Assembly (NCBI GenBank): GCA_017414505.1
Contig: JAFQLQ010000038.1
Coordinates: forward strand, 1-64,000
Reading direction: 5' to 3'
Origin: Clostridia bacterium
GTDB taxonomy: Bacteria > Bacillota > Clostridia > UMGS1840 > HGM11507
DNA: 64,000 nt
Shown one piece after another: positions 1 to 40,550 of the stretch; within the stretch, counting starts at the first letter, position 1; every line of letters begins with the position of its first letter. The notes below the pieces were generated by a model. That model made no database searches and had not been told where the DNA came from. It worked only from the letters and a program-made list of their open reading frames with translations. The position numbers were made by a program, and so were the translations under genes.

Positions 1-360
1 ACTCATTGTAATACCTGCATGTAAGCCTAATGCAGTGAGCAAACTGCTGAATTCTGTAGCAGTAATGTATTGCATTTCAATTGCAGAAAGGTATGAGCTG
101 ATGCTTGCACTACCTACAGTAAGGTTATTTTTGTTATCAAGAGTTTTAATCAAAGAGAAAATATATGTACCTATATATAAAACCCCTATTAACGTTGTTA
201 TTAATGCAACAACAGATTGAATTACTACATCCATTTGAGACCAATCTATTTCCACAAAACTAACAACAATAAACAAAAGCATTAATCCTGCAAATAATGC
301 AAAAGGTATTGCTATTGCTTGAATTACAAATAATATTATGATACCTATTTTATTCTTCAT
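1..360 (-). CDS. Hypothetical membrane protein, N-terminal part (runs off window)
   Basis: An open frame of 120 codons starts at ATG 360-358 and is still open at base 1, so the gene is cut by the window edge. The start is well supported: an AAAGGAGAAAGAGGA stretch lies directly upstream. The visible protein begins MKNKIGIIILFVIQ and has two or three hydrophobic segments (about residues 4-34, 48-68), then a polar part ending near SLLTALGLHAGITM. I do not recognise the family. It is the last gene of the repeat-headed accessory units at this end; the 181-bp element at 405-585 and a TGTCGAA direct repeat lie just upstream. Confidence 0.7.
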   Translation of the reverse strand, partial: MKNKIGIIILFVIQAIAIPFALFAGLMLLFIVVSFVEIDWSQMDVVIQSVVALITTLIGVLYIGTYIFSLIKTLDNKNNLTVGSASISSYLSAIEMQYITATEFSSLLTALGLHAGITMS

Positions 361-373
361 TCCTCTTTCTCCT

Positions 374-390
374 TTCGACAGTATTCGACA
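374..390 (-). promoter_or_regulatory. Tandem TGTCGAA direct repeat (0A-box-like)
   Basis: On the minus strand two perfect TGTCGAA heptamers sit 10 bp apart (384-390 and 374-380), ending 13 bp before the start codon at 360. The heptamer matches the Spo0A box core (TGTCGAA), and Spo0A is known to bind tandem boxes with 10-bp spacing. Here the repeat abuts the ribosome binding site, so a role as an activator site at -35 is unlikely; repression or a different binding protein is possible. Confidence 0.45.
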
Positions 391-404
391 TATCCATAAG
401 GTTC

Positions 405-585
405 GTGTCAAGTCAGGCGAACAGTGAATAATAAGACCTACTAACTTTCCCTGATTATTTCACTGGTTTTTCCTTAAATAAAATTCCTTAGAACCCGCGA
501 GAATACTGGATTTTCTCGCTCCCGATAGTATATGTAAATATTATAAATCGGCAAACTATTCTTTTAAATTGTATGGACTTGACAC
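405..585. repeat. 181-bp intergenic element, copy 1, with 10-bp terminal inverted repeats
   Basis: The element is bounded by perfect inverted repeats GTGTCAAGTC (405-414) and GACTTGACAC (576-585). Inside are a GCGAGAA/TTCTCGC hairpin (497-503 with 513-519), a CCGAT/ATCGG hairpin (522-526 with 547-551) and an outer CAGTGAA...TTCACTG pairing around a conserved ACCTACTAACTTT loop. A second copy at 1298-1456 keeps these stems with compensating base changes. It has no coding capacity. It could be a small non-autonomous mobile element or a structured leader of the downstream minus-strand gene. Confidence 0.65.
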
Positions 586-595
586 AAGAAAAATC

Positions 596-817
596 TTAGT
601 CACAATCTAAAAATAATTGTTCAAGTTCTTTCACATCAAAAATTTCTGCATTACTGATAAACTTTTCAATTTCAACATTACCATTAGCAAAAAATTCTAC
701 TTCCCATCGTTCTCCGGGAATTACAACTTCAACCATTATTGCATCTCTTACTTTATTGAGTTTATAGTATATTTTCTTTTCTTCTAACCTTTCAAGAAAA
801 TCAATTAACTTTTTCAT
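596..817 (-). CDS. Small immunity-type hypothetical protein
   Basis: The 73-aa protein starts at MKKLIDFLERLEEKK. This start was chosen because AGAGGAAG lies 7-8 nt before it; the longer in-frame start at 847 has none. The protein is acidic and soluble, with an N-terminal amphipathic helix, a central strand-rich part (IMVEVVIPGERWEVEFF) and the C-terminal motif VEIEKFISNAEIFD. From memory, similar small proteins occur beside polymorphic-toxin immunity genes in Firmicutes, but no function is assigned. It lies 34 bp after the WapI-like immunity gene and is probably cotranscribed with it. No toxin gene is present next to it. Confidence 0.65.
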   Translation of the reverse strand: MKKLIDFLERLEEKKIYYKLNKVRDAIMVEVVIPGERWEVEFFANGNVEIEKFISNAEIFDVKELEQLFLDCD

Positions 818-851
818 TTTTATTCTTCCTCTCAGTAAATTCAACAAAGTA

Positions 852-1265
852 TTAACCTAAATATTTTTCGTATGTTCCTTTGAAACTTTTAATAAAGTTT
901 TCTATATCTGTTTGGTCTATTGTTTTCTCGAAATTTAATTTATAAGAGCACGAATCATTTAAATTGCATAGAAAACCTTTAATGATAATATGCCCTGTTT
1001 TATTACACGAAAACTCTATGAATTGTTCATTTCCATAAGGCTCTTTAATTAATGCTGTACCATTTAATTTTTCATACATTACAAATATTTTTTCTGCAAA
1101 CACTGCAAATTCCTTTATGTCTATGTCCATAGATGTCTGTGCCGAAAACTCATTGCATTTGAGAGTCGTACTCATAATAGTATTACTTGAATATTTAATG
1201 TCCGTTTCAAAAATATTCATATCCAATTCCATATGCAGTTTGTTAGCTTCTAATATATGTTTCAT
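852..1265 (-). CDS. WapI-like immunity protein
   Basis: The 137-aa protein resembles the WapI-type immunity family, whose members neutralise the C-terminal toxin domain of WapA-like contact-dependent toxins in the cytoplasm. Supporting features are the layout F-x-S/A-Q-T-S-M-D-I-D followed by KLNGTALIKEP, a central NKTGHIIIKG strand pair and the C-terminal FEKTIDQTDIENFIKSF segment. The start at 1265 has AGAAGG 7 nt upstream; the longer start at 1304 would overlap the upstream repeat. The gene is an orphan: no WapA-like toxin is in the window. Identification is from remembered family pattern, so moderate confidence. Confidence 0.55.
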   Translation of the reverse strand: MKHILEANKLHMELDMNIFETDIKYSSNTIMSTTLKCNEFSAQTSMDIDIKEFAVFAEKIFVMYEKLNGTALIKEPYGNEQFIEFSCNKTGHIIIKGFLCNLNDSCSYKLNFEKTIDQTDIENFIKSFKGTYEKYLG

Positions 1266-1284
1266 ATTAAACCTTCTTTCAAAA

Positions 1285-1301
1285 TTCGACAAAGTTCGTG
1301 T
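1285..1301 (-). promoter_or_regulatory. 0A-box-like site, second half degenerate
   Basis: A perfect TGTCGAA (minus strand, 1285-1291) lies 19 bp before the start codon at 1265. A degenerate half site (ACACGAA, 1295-1301) is 10 bp further upstream, and TTGACA lies at the same place on the minus strand (1299-1304). This is the head of repeat copy 2. Confidence 0.35.
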
Positions 1302-1456
1302 CAAGACCGGTGAACAGTGAATAATAGGACCTACTAACTTTACCCTATTTTTTCAACTGTTTTTTCTTTATCACTTTTCATTAGAATCCGCAGGAATATT
1401 AGATTTTCCTGTCCGATATGTAAATATCAAAATCGGCAAACTATTGTATTAAATTT
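1298..1456. repeat. Intergenic element, copy 2
   Basis: This is a diverged copy of the element at 405-585. It shares the GTTCGTGTCAAG head, the ACCTACTAACTTT loop and the AATCGGCAAACTATT tail, but lacks the terminal GACTTGACAC. Its hairpin CAGGAA/TTCCTG (1391-1396 with 1406-1411) replaces CGAGAA/TTCTCG of copy 1 by two compensating base-pair changes. The CCGAT/ATCGG stem (1413-1417 with 1432-1436) is kept with a shorter loop. Confidence 0.65.
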
Positions 1457-1521
1457 TGAAAATTAACATGAGTAAAATTACAGCAAATACACACTTTTTA
1501 TGTTTTTAACAACATAAAACC

Positions 1522-4114: not shown

Positions 4115-4174
4115 ATAAAGTTCCTCACTAATATTAGTTGCTTTTTATGTGTTTTTAATATGTTTTCCAACATT

Positions 4175-4212
4175 TTCTACACCATTCGACAAAGTTCGTG
4201 TCAAGACTGGAC
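4175..4212 (-). repeat. Fragment of the intergenic element with TGTCGAA repeats
   Basis: The stretch repeats the head of the two longer elements (TTCGACAAAGTTCGTGTCAA on the plus strand from 4185) and then diverges. On the minus strand there is TGTCGAA (4185-4191) with a one-mismatch copy TGTAGAA exactly 10 bp downstream (4175-4181) and ACACGAA 10 bp upstream. It lies about 60 bp before the HEPN gene start. Confidence 0.5.
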
Positions 4213-4256
4213 TAAAAAACACAAAAAATTTTACATCGTTTCTTATAAAACTCAAC

Positions 4257-5603
4257 TTAAATTCTGATATTAACCCATTTTCCTTTTTTAAAGCGTATAA
4301 ACGAGCAGGTAAATCTTACAAGCTGATCGACAAAGATACCCATCCATATACCGAAAATGCCTAACTTCATTATATAGCAGAAAAAATATCCTGCAACAGT
4401 TCGCACAACTGAAATACTGATAGTTGAAACTATTGCTGTATACAAAGTATCTCCTGCACCTCTTAAACAGCCCATATACACAACCTGACGAATCTGGAAC
4501 AGAATGGCAACAATTATAATATAAAGAATCGTTACACCAATCTGAACAATTTCTGCTTCTTTAAAGAAAAGATTCATCGTCCATTTTGCTCCTGCAAAAT
4601 ACAAACCGGCAAGAACAACCGAAATAACCGCGCCTATAGACTGACAAGCCGAGCCGTATTCTCTGGCTTTATCGGGATTACGTTCCCCAAGGCTTCTGCC
4701 TATAAGTGCTACTGCGGCAGTCTGAAGTCCGTCGCCAAACGCAAAGGAAAGGCTCATAATATTTATACAAACCTGATGCGCCGCCATAGCGTATGTTCCC
4801 TGATTTGCCGCCATAACCGCCGTAAGCACAAAACCCACTCGCATAAGAAGCTGTTCGGCAAAAACACTGTAGCCTACTCTTACAATATTTTTAAGGGATA
4901 CAAATGTTGGTTTTATTTTTTCTTTGATTATGTAAGGAATGCTGATAAAGCAATCTTTCTTGGCTATGGATACAATACTCATAACAGATGAAACCACGGT
5001 ACCAAGCACTGTAGCGAGTGCAGCGCCTTTTATACCCAAAGCAGGAAAACCGAATTTTCCGCCTATAAGCAGATAATTGAAAATTATATTTACAATATTT
5101 GAGGTAGTATTGGTACGCATTGTAATTTTAGTATTGCCTGCACCTCTCTGCGCAGAATTTATACCAATCTGAATGCAGTTGAAAATCATACCGCCCATAA
5201 TAATTCTTAAATAGTCCACTGCCATATCCTGAGTATCGGGGGTTGCGCCGCACCACTTTATGATGGTTGGAGCAAAAACAAGAAAAATTACAGAAATAAC
5301 TGCCGCAAGCAGAATTACAAGGGTGAACGAAGTAAGAAAAACCGAATTGGCGGCATCTCTTCTTTTTTCACCAAATCTTCTTGCAACCAATGCTGAAACT
5401 GAAACACTTATAGCCATAAACACAGACAATCCGACAAATTTAGGCTGGGATGTAAGTCCGACAGCCGCAACAGCACTCGGCCCTAAAGAGCTTACCATAA
5501 GTGCATCCACAAGACCTGCAAAAGCAACAAAAAACGATTCTATCATAGATGGAATTGCCATATTAAGTGTTGTTTTCAAAGTATTTTTATTTATCTTAAG
5601 CAT
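4257..5603 (-). CDS. MATE family efflux transporter
   Basis: The 448-aa integral membrane protein has about 12 hydrophobic segments and the two-fold internal repeat of MATE (multidrug and toxic compound extrusion) cation antiporters. Family features include the N-terminal AIPSMIESFFVAFAGLVDAL, the half-linker VSALVARRFGEKR and its counterpart GRSLGERNPDKAREYG. It would export small molecules at the plasma membrane using an ion gradient; the substrate cannot be told. The start MLKINKN has GGAG 9 nt upstream; two longer starts lack a good site. A TTGTTT/17/TATACT promoter lies upstream. Length is normal. Confidence 0.9.
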   Translation of the reverse strand: MLKINKNTLKTTLNMAIPSMIESFFVAFAGLVDALMVSSLGPSAVAAVGLTSQPKFVGLSVFMAISVSVSALVARRFGEKRRDAANSVFLTSFTLVILLAAVISVIFLVFAPTIIKWCGATPDTQDMAVDYLRIIMGGMIFNCIQIGINSAQRGAGNTKITMRTNTTSNIVNIIFNYLLIGGKFGFPALGIKGAALATVLGTVVSSVMSIVSIAKKDCFISIPYIIKEKIKPTFVSLKNIVRVGYSVFAEQLLMRVGFVLTAVMAANQGTYAMAAHQVCINIMSLSFAFGDGLQTAAVALIGRSLGERNPDKAREYGSACQSIGAVISVVLAGLYFAGAKWTMNLFFKEAEIVQIGVTILYIIIVAILFQIRQVVYMGCLRGAGDTLYTAIVSTISISVVRTVAGYFFCYIMKLGIFGIWMGIFVDQLVRFTCSFIRFKKGKWVNIRI

Positions 5604-5740: not shown

Positions 5741-6844
5741 ATGCACTACGTTAATTCAAAAACAATTTTATCTGCCAGAAACGGTATGAATTTATACAGG
5801 GGCTGCACCCACGGATGTATTTACTGTGATTCACGGAGCAAGTGTTATCACATGGAACACGATTTTGAGGATATTGAAATAAAGGAAAACGCTGTTTCGC
5901 TTCTTGAAAAAGCGTTAAAAAGCAAACGGAAAAAATGTATGATAGGCACAGGTTCTATGACGGATCCGTATATTCCCCTTGAGGAAAGCGTCGGTAATTT
6001 AAGGAAGTGTCTTGAACTGATTTACGAAAACGGATTCGGATTTACTGTAATTACAAAATCTACGGGAATTTTACGGGATCTTGATTTACTGAAAAAAATA
6101 AACGAAAAAACAAAATGCGTTGTTCAGATGACTCTTACAACTTTTGACGAAAAGCTTGCAAGAATAGTTGAACCAAATGTTTCCACAACAAAAGAACGCT
6201 TTGAAGCTCTTAAACTTTTTCGTGATAACGGTATTCCCACAGTTGTGTGGCTCTGCCCCATTCTGCCTTTTATAAATGATACTGAGGAAAATCTTCTTGG
6301 AATTTTAAACTACTGTAAGGAAGCAGGAGTTTACGGGATAATTTCTTTCGGAATGGGAATGACATTAAGAGAGGGTAACCGTGAATATTTCTACAAGGAG
6401 CTTGATAAAAGCTTTCCTCATCTTAAGGAAAAATACATAAAAACCTATGGTGAAAGCTACGAGCTTTTAAGCCCGAATCATTATAAGCTGATGAAGATTT
6501 TCAGGGAATTTTGTAAAAAGAACAACATAGTTTATGATAATAATAAAATTTTTAAATATTTATCAGAATTTGAAGATAAAAACGAAGCTTTACAAAATAG
6601 CAACAAAAAAACCGTTTGGATTTTCCAAACGGTTTTTTTGTTGCTATTTTGTAGCTTTTTCAACAGTAGCAAGATAACGGGCGTAAGCGTCCTGTTTAAC
6701 CTTTACAACATCGTTCAAGCCCATATTTTCAAGTGTTTTAATGAAATTATCATAGTTATCAAAGCTTTCTCTTCCAACGATGAATTTATTAATCATTTCA
6801 TCGTGATAGCTCTTGATTTCATTGAATTTTGTTGTTGCTATTAA
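5741..6844 (+). CDS. SPL-like radical SAM protein, open frame without its own stop
   Basis: Residues 1-285 (to about 6595) are a radical SAM protein of the spore-photoproduct-lyase-like/Rv2578c family. The Fe-S motif CTHGCIYC gives Cys22, Cys26 and Cys29; GTGSMTDPYIPLE and a TIM-barrel pattern follow. It would bind a 4Fe-4S cluster and S-adenosylmethionine; the substrate is unknown. The family usually ends near 290 aa. Here the frame has no stop there: it runs through a strong terminator palindrome (6592-6652) and then antisense to the end of the solute-binding protein gene until 6844. The last ~80 residues are therefore probably not natural protein. A TAG one frame away at 6598 suggests a lost stop. 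Confidence 0.75.
   Translation: MHYVNSKTILSARNGMNLYRGCTHGCIYCDSRSKCYHMEHDFEDIEIKENAVSLLEKALKSKRKKCMIGTGSMTDPYIPLEESVGNLRKCLELIYENGFGFTVITKSTGILRDLDLLKKINEKTKCVVQMTLTTFDEKLARIVEPNVSTTKERFEALKLFRDNGIPTVVWLCPILPFINDTEENLLGILNYCKEAGVYGIISFGMGMTLREGNREYFYKELDKSFPHLKEKYIKTYGESYELLSPNHYKLMKIFREFCKKNNIVYDNNKIFKYLSEFEDKNEALQNSNKKTVWIFQTVFLLLFCSFFNSSKITGVSVLFNLYNIVQAHIFKCFNEIIIVIKAFSSNDEFINHFIVIALDFIEFCCCY
6592..6652. terminator. Bidirectional terminator inside a 29-bp perfect inverted repeat
   Basis: Arms 6592-6620 and 6624-6652 are perfectly complementary around a 3-nt loop. The core AAACCGTTTGG/CCAAACGGTTT is flanked by an A run and a T run, so it can end transcription from both convergent genes. 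The outer part of each arm is coding or stop-codon sequence: it carries the TAG of the minus-strand solute-binding protein gene. Confidence 0.85.
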
Positions 6845-40411: not shown

Positions 40412-40430
40412 GCACTATACTTATAATAAA

Positions 40431-40542
40431 TACAGTTTCTTTCATCCGGACTATACCGTCGGTTCCGGAATTACACCGGATCAGTCTTTCGACTCGCGGA
40501 CTTTACCGCCGGTGAGGAATTTCGCCTCGCCCTGAAACAGAT
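40431..40542 (-). promoter_or_regulatory. FMN riboswitch (RFN element)
   Basis: On the minus strand the conserved RFN blocks appear in order: TTTCAGGGCGAGG, AATTCCTCACCGGCGGTA, GTCCGCGA, GATCCGGTGTAATTCCGG, ACCGACGGTATAGTCCGGAT and GAAAGAAAC, giving the six-arm junction. It senses FMN and represses ribU through the following terminator. Confidence 0.96.
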
Positions 40543-40550
40543 ATGTATGT

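Follow-up and report, generated by a model that had tools for sequence, protein, structure and literature searches.

Integrons are the textbook platform by which single genes are captured and shuffled, and the Firmicutes are among the dominant phyla of the animal gut. The core at which integrons recombine has the sequence GTTRRRY/RYYYAAC (PMC8876359), and integrons are very rare in Firmicutes (PMC9024848). Here we describe a structured intergenic element at the start of a contig (JAFQLQ010000038.1) of a Clostridia bacterium, together with the accessory genes that it accompanies. The window is the whole stretch of DNA that was analysed, 64,000 nucleotides long. It belongs to a large and so far undescribed family of folded DNA or RNA sequences from gut Clostridia, and no description of it was found in the open-access literature.

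The element in the window and across the Clostridia

An earlier note on this DNA had described a duplicated element with a fragment, copy 1 being bounded by a perfect 10-bp inverted repeat. Both observations are real. The two copies align over 175 columns and are 79% identical (E 7e-28); a 3'-end fragment lies at window positions 4184-4210, of which 24 bp (4184-4207) match copy 2 exactly (E 2.6e-7). The terminal inverted repeat of copy 1 is complete (GTGTCAAGTC at 405-414 and GACTTGACAC at 576-585), and in copy 2 one arm is kept while the other has degraded to GAAAATTAACATGAG (about 1459-1473). The window begins at base 1 of the contig and the array continues past the contig end (Table 1).

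Table 1. Features of the cassette array, listed in the direction of reading on the minus strand
Feature	Position in window	Strand	Remarks
MATE transporter, host gene ahead of the array	4257..5603	-	array starts about 46 bp past its stop
Solo left end CCAGTCTTGACAC, array start	4198..4210	-	adjoins host T-run TTTTTTAGT (4211-4219)
Leader of cassette 1	4140..4197	-	one TGTCGAA box (GAACTTTGTCGAATGGTGTAGAAAATG...)
Cassette 1 gene, 286 aa	3254..4114	-	no Pfam match
Cassette 1 gene, 568 aa	1522..3228	-	DUF6273 domain
Element copy 2, full	1298..1475	-	hairpin of type B, ACAGGAA/TTCCTGC; the 3' arm is preserved, the 5' arm degraded
Cassette 2 gene, 137 aa	852..1265	-	WapI-like immunity protein (passes the PF24716 cut-off)
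Cassette 2 gene, 73 aa	596..817	-	no assigned family; sub-threshold Ago N-domain match
Element copy 1, full	401..590	-	type A hairpin; after gene 817-596, before gene 360-1
Leader of cassette 3	361..400	-	follows copy 1; boxes TGTCGAATACTGTCGAA in tandem, spaced 10 bp, with a ribosome-binding site after them
Cassette 3 gene	1..360	-	5' 120 codons only, contig end

Two other features of the window may be mentioned. A 63-bp near-perfect palindrome at 6591-6653, with a AACCGTTTGGATTTTCCAAACGGTT core and long T/A runs, lies at the ends of two converging genes and is likely a bidirectional terminator, and an FMN riboswitch is found on the minus strand at 40430-40543 (116 bits).

The earlier note had proposed a search of the bacterium's own genome and of related Clostridia, and a comparison with Rfam. 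The own genome holds two full copies. With a loose threshold the element was matched in 22 of 148 relatives, and it occurs in 34 of the 391 genomes sampled from the class Clostridia, which belong to 23 of the 222 genera and carry 11 family labels. The Rfam covariance models gave no match at the gathering score and no relevant one at a permissive E-value, and no element matches were obtained in phage, plasmid and viral collections. The 61 stretches that carry the element in named genomes all come from metagenome-assembled or uncultured Clostridia, Oscillospiraceae, Eubacteriales or Ruminococcus, and the animal source, where given in the title, is the ruminant gut (goat, sheep, deer, buffalo, yak). 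From the fetched loci we gathered 98 distinct copies or partial copies.

Anatomy and pairing of the element

The anatomy is described on the sense strand, which is the minus strand of the window. The 5' part consists of an arm, TTTACTCGTGTCAAGTC, and an AT-rich stretch closing with AGTTTGCC, followed by the stem CCGAT/ATCGG. The main hairpin takes the form GCGAGAA/TTCTCGC or GCAGGAA/TTCCTGC in the family and is followed by a variable middle. There is also an optional second hairpin module, which repeats together with its linker (AACAAGGTTCT...GGTTCTTATT) and is present in none to two or more copies; its stem has two differing sequences, each able to pair. The 3' end, TATTATTCACTGTTCTCCTGACTTGACAC, is highly conserved, and the length of the whole element ranges from 140 to 370 bp. 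Helix 1, formed by the terminal arms, is paired in only 65% of the cells of the alignment, and many copies are without the 5' arm. Terminal inverted repeats with at least 8 of 10 positions paired are seen in 15 of 36 module-free copies and are decayed in the others.

Comparing the two copies in the window, the earlier note had pointed to a hairpin in which two base pairs are swapped while pairing is kept. This is confirmed (GCGAGAA/TTCTCGC in copy 1, ACAGGAA/TTCCTGC in copy 2) and extends to an alignment of 36 sequences, where the swapped positions are GC in 22 and AU in 14 sequences, and AU in 20 and GC in 16, with pairing kept in 36/36; the main hairpin as a helix is paired in 98.8% of cells. 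The arms CCGAT/ATCGG are indeed kept while their loop lengths differ, but the ACCTACTAACTTT loop described as constant varies across the family and is often ACCTACTATTTTT. Fully paired hairpin arms number 54 of 63, compared to a mean of 34.7 and a maximum of 43 when the arms are shuffled. The number of independent pairing changes is small because most of the change is a single two-base haplotype switch, to which a rare third form is added. Moreover, three hybrid copies (L133 6120-6357, L057 9689-10002 and L125 7191-7292) combine a 5' hairpin arm of one type with a 3' arm of the other, which breaks the pairing; they show that exchange has taken place inside the element, in or near the hairpin loop. 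Selection on the fold of the element is therefore likely but not strongly proven, given the few independent changes and the hybrids. The earlier suggestion of an undescribed RNA motif under such selection holds in that one hairpin co-varies, and is weakened in that this covariation comes mainly from two allelic forms.

No terminator was found within the elements of the window, nor a good -10 box beyond their 3' end. The TTGACA at the 3' end was considered as a -35 promoter box and rejected, a -10 with at least 5/6 matches being present in 2% of cases compared to 5% of shuffles. We also looked for element 3' ends lacking the CTTGACA end, which could have placed the crossover, and none were evident on inspecting a loose scan.

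Cassettes, array starts and leaders

The elements had been thought to head the genes downstream of them. The element belongs instead to the gene before it and is not a leader of the downstream gene: the upstream gene is co-oriented with the element in 83 of 83 cases, with the element at a median of 47 bp past the stop codon, and the gene downstream runs in the same direction in 71 of 76. Among pairs of elements, 9 have the upstream gene in common, 14 the downstream sequence (some of these downstream pairs being other repeats) and none both. At loci with a common upstream gene the first part of the element is also common, above the background of unrelated copies; at loci with common downstream sequence this first part is not common beyond background. 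Detailed alignments reveal gene-plus-element blocks that are 90-98% identical between loci and have unrelated flanks, and 32% of alignment ends are no more than 60 bp away from an element or solo end, about five times the 6.9% expected by position. Cassettes carry the element with the preceding gene, shuffle between genomes and form short head-to-tail arrays. A small mobile element that moves cassettes, as had been suggested, is thus well supported by the blocks with differing neighbours, by the strict orientation and by the empty site described below. The suggestion that the cargo is immunity and defence is right for the WapI-like gene and for about 3 of 70 cassette genes matching defence ATPase models. 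It is too narrow for the whole, as the cargo is broadly accessory; the 70 genes belong to diverse families that include S-layer domains, hydrolases and TPR proteins.

The first cassette of an array is preceded by the last bases of the element alone, CCNGNCTTGACA, found 2-4 nt after a T-run, and the sequence around these T-runs differs from locus to locus. Taking 60 motif matches as solo ends, 51 have at least 4 T within 12 nt, compared to 9.6% in nearby sequence. For 24 of the 60 a same-strand stop codon is no more than 30 nt away, compared to 6.5% for random positions. The solo ends linked to arrays are all in the orientation of the array. Of 148 genomes, 12 contain the pattern T4 N2-5 CCTGACTTGACA; most of these carry the element, and the control gave no matches. 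At their right ends, arrays often break off in a truncated element, and the breakpoints vary. Another repeat family, ATATCGAGCAAACGAAGTTTGCATATCGAC, was observed repeatedly just before solo left ends, and AAAGCCTTCCCCTTGAGGGGAAGG repeats just after some left ends (L071:4415-4626, L128:623-843, L248:5644-5835).

An empty site was found in one set of related genomes. In G004 the end of a host gene reads AAATTTTAAT/TGAAAAAACAAAAAAATCCCG (longer read ...CAGTATAAATTTTAAT/TGAAAAAACAAAAAAATCCCG; the slash marks the junction), and in its relative G005 the same gene end runs on as TTTTAATCC/TGACTTGACAC. The insert of G005 is about 5.1 kb long, starts at the last bases of the element, CCTGACTTGACAC, after the stop codon at TTTTAAT, and consists of cassettes and other genes, after which the same terminator sequence resumes. 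A third species, G008, has a left junction identical to that of G005 with a different gene next, so that the junction falls at the identical base in two species and is empty in the third. The host gene is an SGNH-like esterase of about 270 aa (L246 reverse complement 1358, L245 1479, L247 1612). This is a single case, and independent insertion in G005 and G008 or loss of an array in G004 both fit. A second empty site was sought for G050, where the sampled relatives had no orthologous flank, and one for the window's own array through its MATE/radical-SAM flank, which gave distant homologues only. Read by eye, neither the 72 full copies nor the empty site shows an obvious target-site duplication.

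The leaders have a motif of their own. TGTCGAA occurs within 60 nt in 50% of 138 distinct leaders, compared to 0.4% when shuffled, and successive boxes are mostly 10 bp apart. Tandem boxes reach 2.45 per kb in leaders and 0.004 elsewhere in the fetched loci, a density about 590-fold higher. A search of the bacterium's own genome with the strict leader pattern found nothing. The Spo0A box has TGTCGAA as its core (PMC3485338), and the cassette leaders likewise contain this sequence, often in tandem at 10-bp spacing. This is the geometry expected of a Spo0A-type operator, and the boxes could be one; they could equally be arm sites of a recombinase.

Possible mechanisms and known systems

The element probably serves as the 3' end at which a mobile gene cassette recombines. 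The gene-plus-element blocks, the empty site and the solo ends at T-runs point to a unit that would consist of a leader with TGTCGAA boxes, one to three co-directional accessory genes and the structured element just past the last stop. Arrays begin at the precise end CCTGACTTGACAC, which is placed 2-4 nt after a T-run and often directly behind the stop codon of a host gene. Joining the conserved TTATTCACTGTTCTCCTGACTTGACAC end to a second end of this kind or to T-rich target DNA would be the work of a site-specific recombinase or transposase, which may use a folded single strand (terminal arms, middle hairpins, variable extra modules) as IntI uses attC. An excised circle would carry the predicted junction ...TTCACTGTTCT-CCTGACTTGACAC..., and Spo0A, or a regulator with the same box, may act on the leaders. 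We have less confidence that there is a dedicated site-specific recombinase than that the cassettes move. Two observations speak against this account: arrays vary at their right ends, which a conservative recombinase by itself would not yield, and many copies are without a 5' arm.

No mobilising enzyme linked to the arrays was found among the integron integrase, reverse transcriptase, serine-recombinase triplet and neighbour transposases that we looked at. The integron integrase IntI (TIGR02249, cut-off 265 bits) was found in 0 of 18 element-carrying genomes, which are incomplete MAGs, the best single piece scoring 86.9 bits. The commonest tyrosine recombinase of the carriers, of about 290 aa, adjoins dacF- or spoIIM-like genes and from this neighbourhood looks like the housekeeping XerD. 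Tandem large serine recombinases, in triplets where complete, lie upstream of an element in four genomes (L107:3-4713, L087:2762-4541, L168:6855-11697 in the genome region of L133, and L114:1-1840). In L107 and L087 the last recombinase ends 29 or 52 bp ahead of the element; in L133, too, the array comes after a triplet, and in L114 one is partly seen at the contig start, so they could be what mobilises the cassettes. This is improbable, as similar triplets occur in other Clostridia without the element, nothing in the element-carrying G002, G005 and G015 matches them at E<=1e-20, and the triplet may just be cargo; as a general mobiliser it was rejected. The precise left end beside a T-run and the variable right ends are also what would result if an RNA were copied and inserted at T-runs by target-primed reverse transcription. 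That reading we find the least credible of those considered here. Its polarity would require an antisense transcript, and an RVT_1 protein is present in only 2 of 9 element-carrying genomes (none in G002, G003, G005, G050 and G086), so that a reverse transcriptase as common mobiliser was discarded with 7 of 9 carriers lacking it.

The element could also be a repeat like BOX or a MITE: a non-autonomous transposon, with terminal inverted repeats and a variable set of hairpin modules inside, that is served by a transposase in trans. Its copies would then shuffle the genes through homologous recombination of the ordinary kind. In agreement with this, some copies have terminal inverted repeats, the hairpins are modular, the position is intergenic, and truncated copies and clustering with other short repeats are seen. 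It is the strongest of the rivals, although still unlikely. Random insertion would not give the complete upstream co-orientation or the tight spacing past the stop, the insert at the empty site contains genes and not just the repeat, the ends read by eye showed no target-site duplication, and no transposase recurs among the neighbours. Alternatively, the element could be retained for regulation as a cis-acting RNA, be it an attenuator, a riboswitch or a 3' UTR element, and the arrays would be simple operons. It lies co-directionally between genes, one helix is almost always paired with compensatory changes, and read-through transcripts may be possible because the window's elements have no terminator and no good -10. 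This too has little probability, though a shade more than the serine-recombinase reading: the element is absent from Rfam, its flanking genes are unrelated and never conserved as a pair, pairing-breaking hybrids occur, and regulation alone leaves the solo ends at T-runs and the empty site unexplained.

These arrays could tentatively be seen as a second, independent bacterial gene-cassette system, with integron-like arrays and a structured site, unrelated machinery, T-rich insertion often behind stops and leaders wired to Spo0A-type boxes; we consider this possible and hold it with reserve. A cassette platform over at least 10 families of gut Clostridia, carrying immunity, defence and surface genes, would partly explain their exchange of accessory genes. 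If true, the uniqueness of the integron solution would become a directly testable question.

Among known systems, IMEs and ICEs with serine recombinases in Firmicutes share the serine-recombinase triplets beside a few arrays, but most element arrays are without a nearby recombinase. The BOX elements of Streptococcus pneumoniae, which are MITE-like, are also intergenic and modular, with variable internal hairpin modules, a predicted stable RNA fold and clustering with other repeats; the Clostridia element differs in that it is tied to the upstream gene, always in the same orientation, and moves with genes. A third comparison is with integron cassettes and attC sites. Different from these, the element is 140-370 bp long, and its arrays are short, scattered over many loci at T-runs and often truncated at the right end. 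They have no IntI above the cut-off, and the 72 elements compared have no GTTRRRY/RYYYAAC at a conserved position, only isolated chance matches. Sites of the attC kind, which recombine as a folded single strand, are conserved in structure over sequence; in the element the main hairpin covaries, the terminal arms are often decayed and the sequence itself is well conserved. In both systems a cassette holds one to a few accessory genes and closes with a structured site made up of terminal arms and a variable middle, the orientation is uniform (83/83 here), the arrays begin at a simpler site and the order is shuffled (0 locus pairs with both neighbours in common). Lacking IntI and the core, two traits that define an integron, the cassette array is not one, but it works like an integron cassette array.
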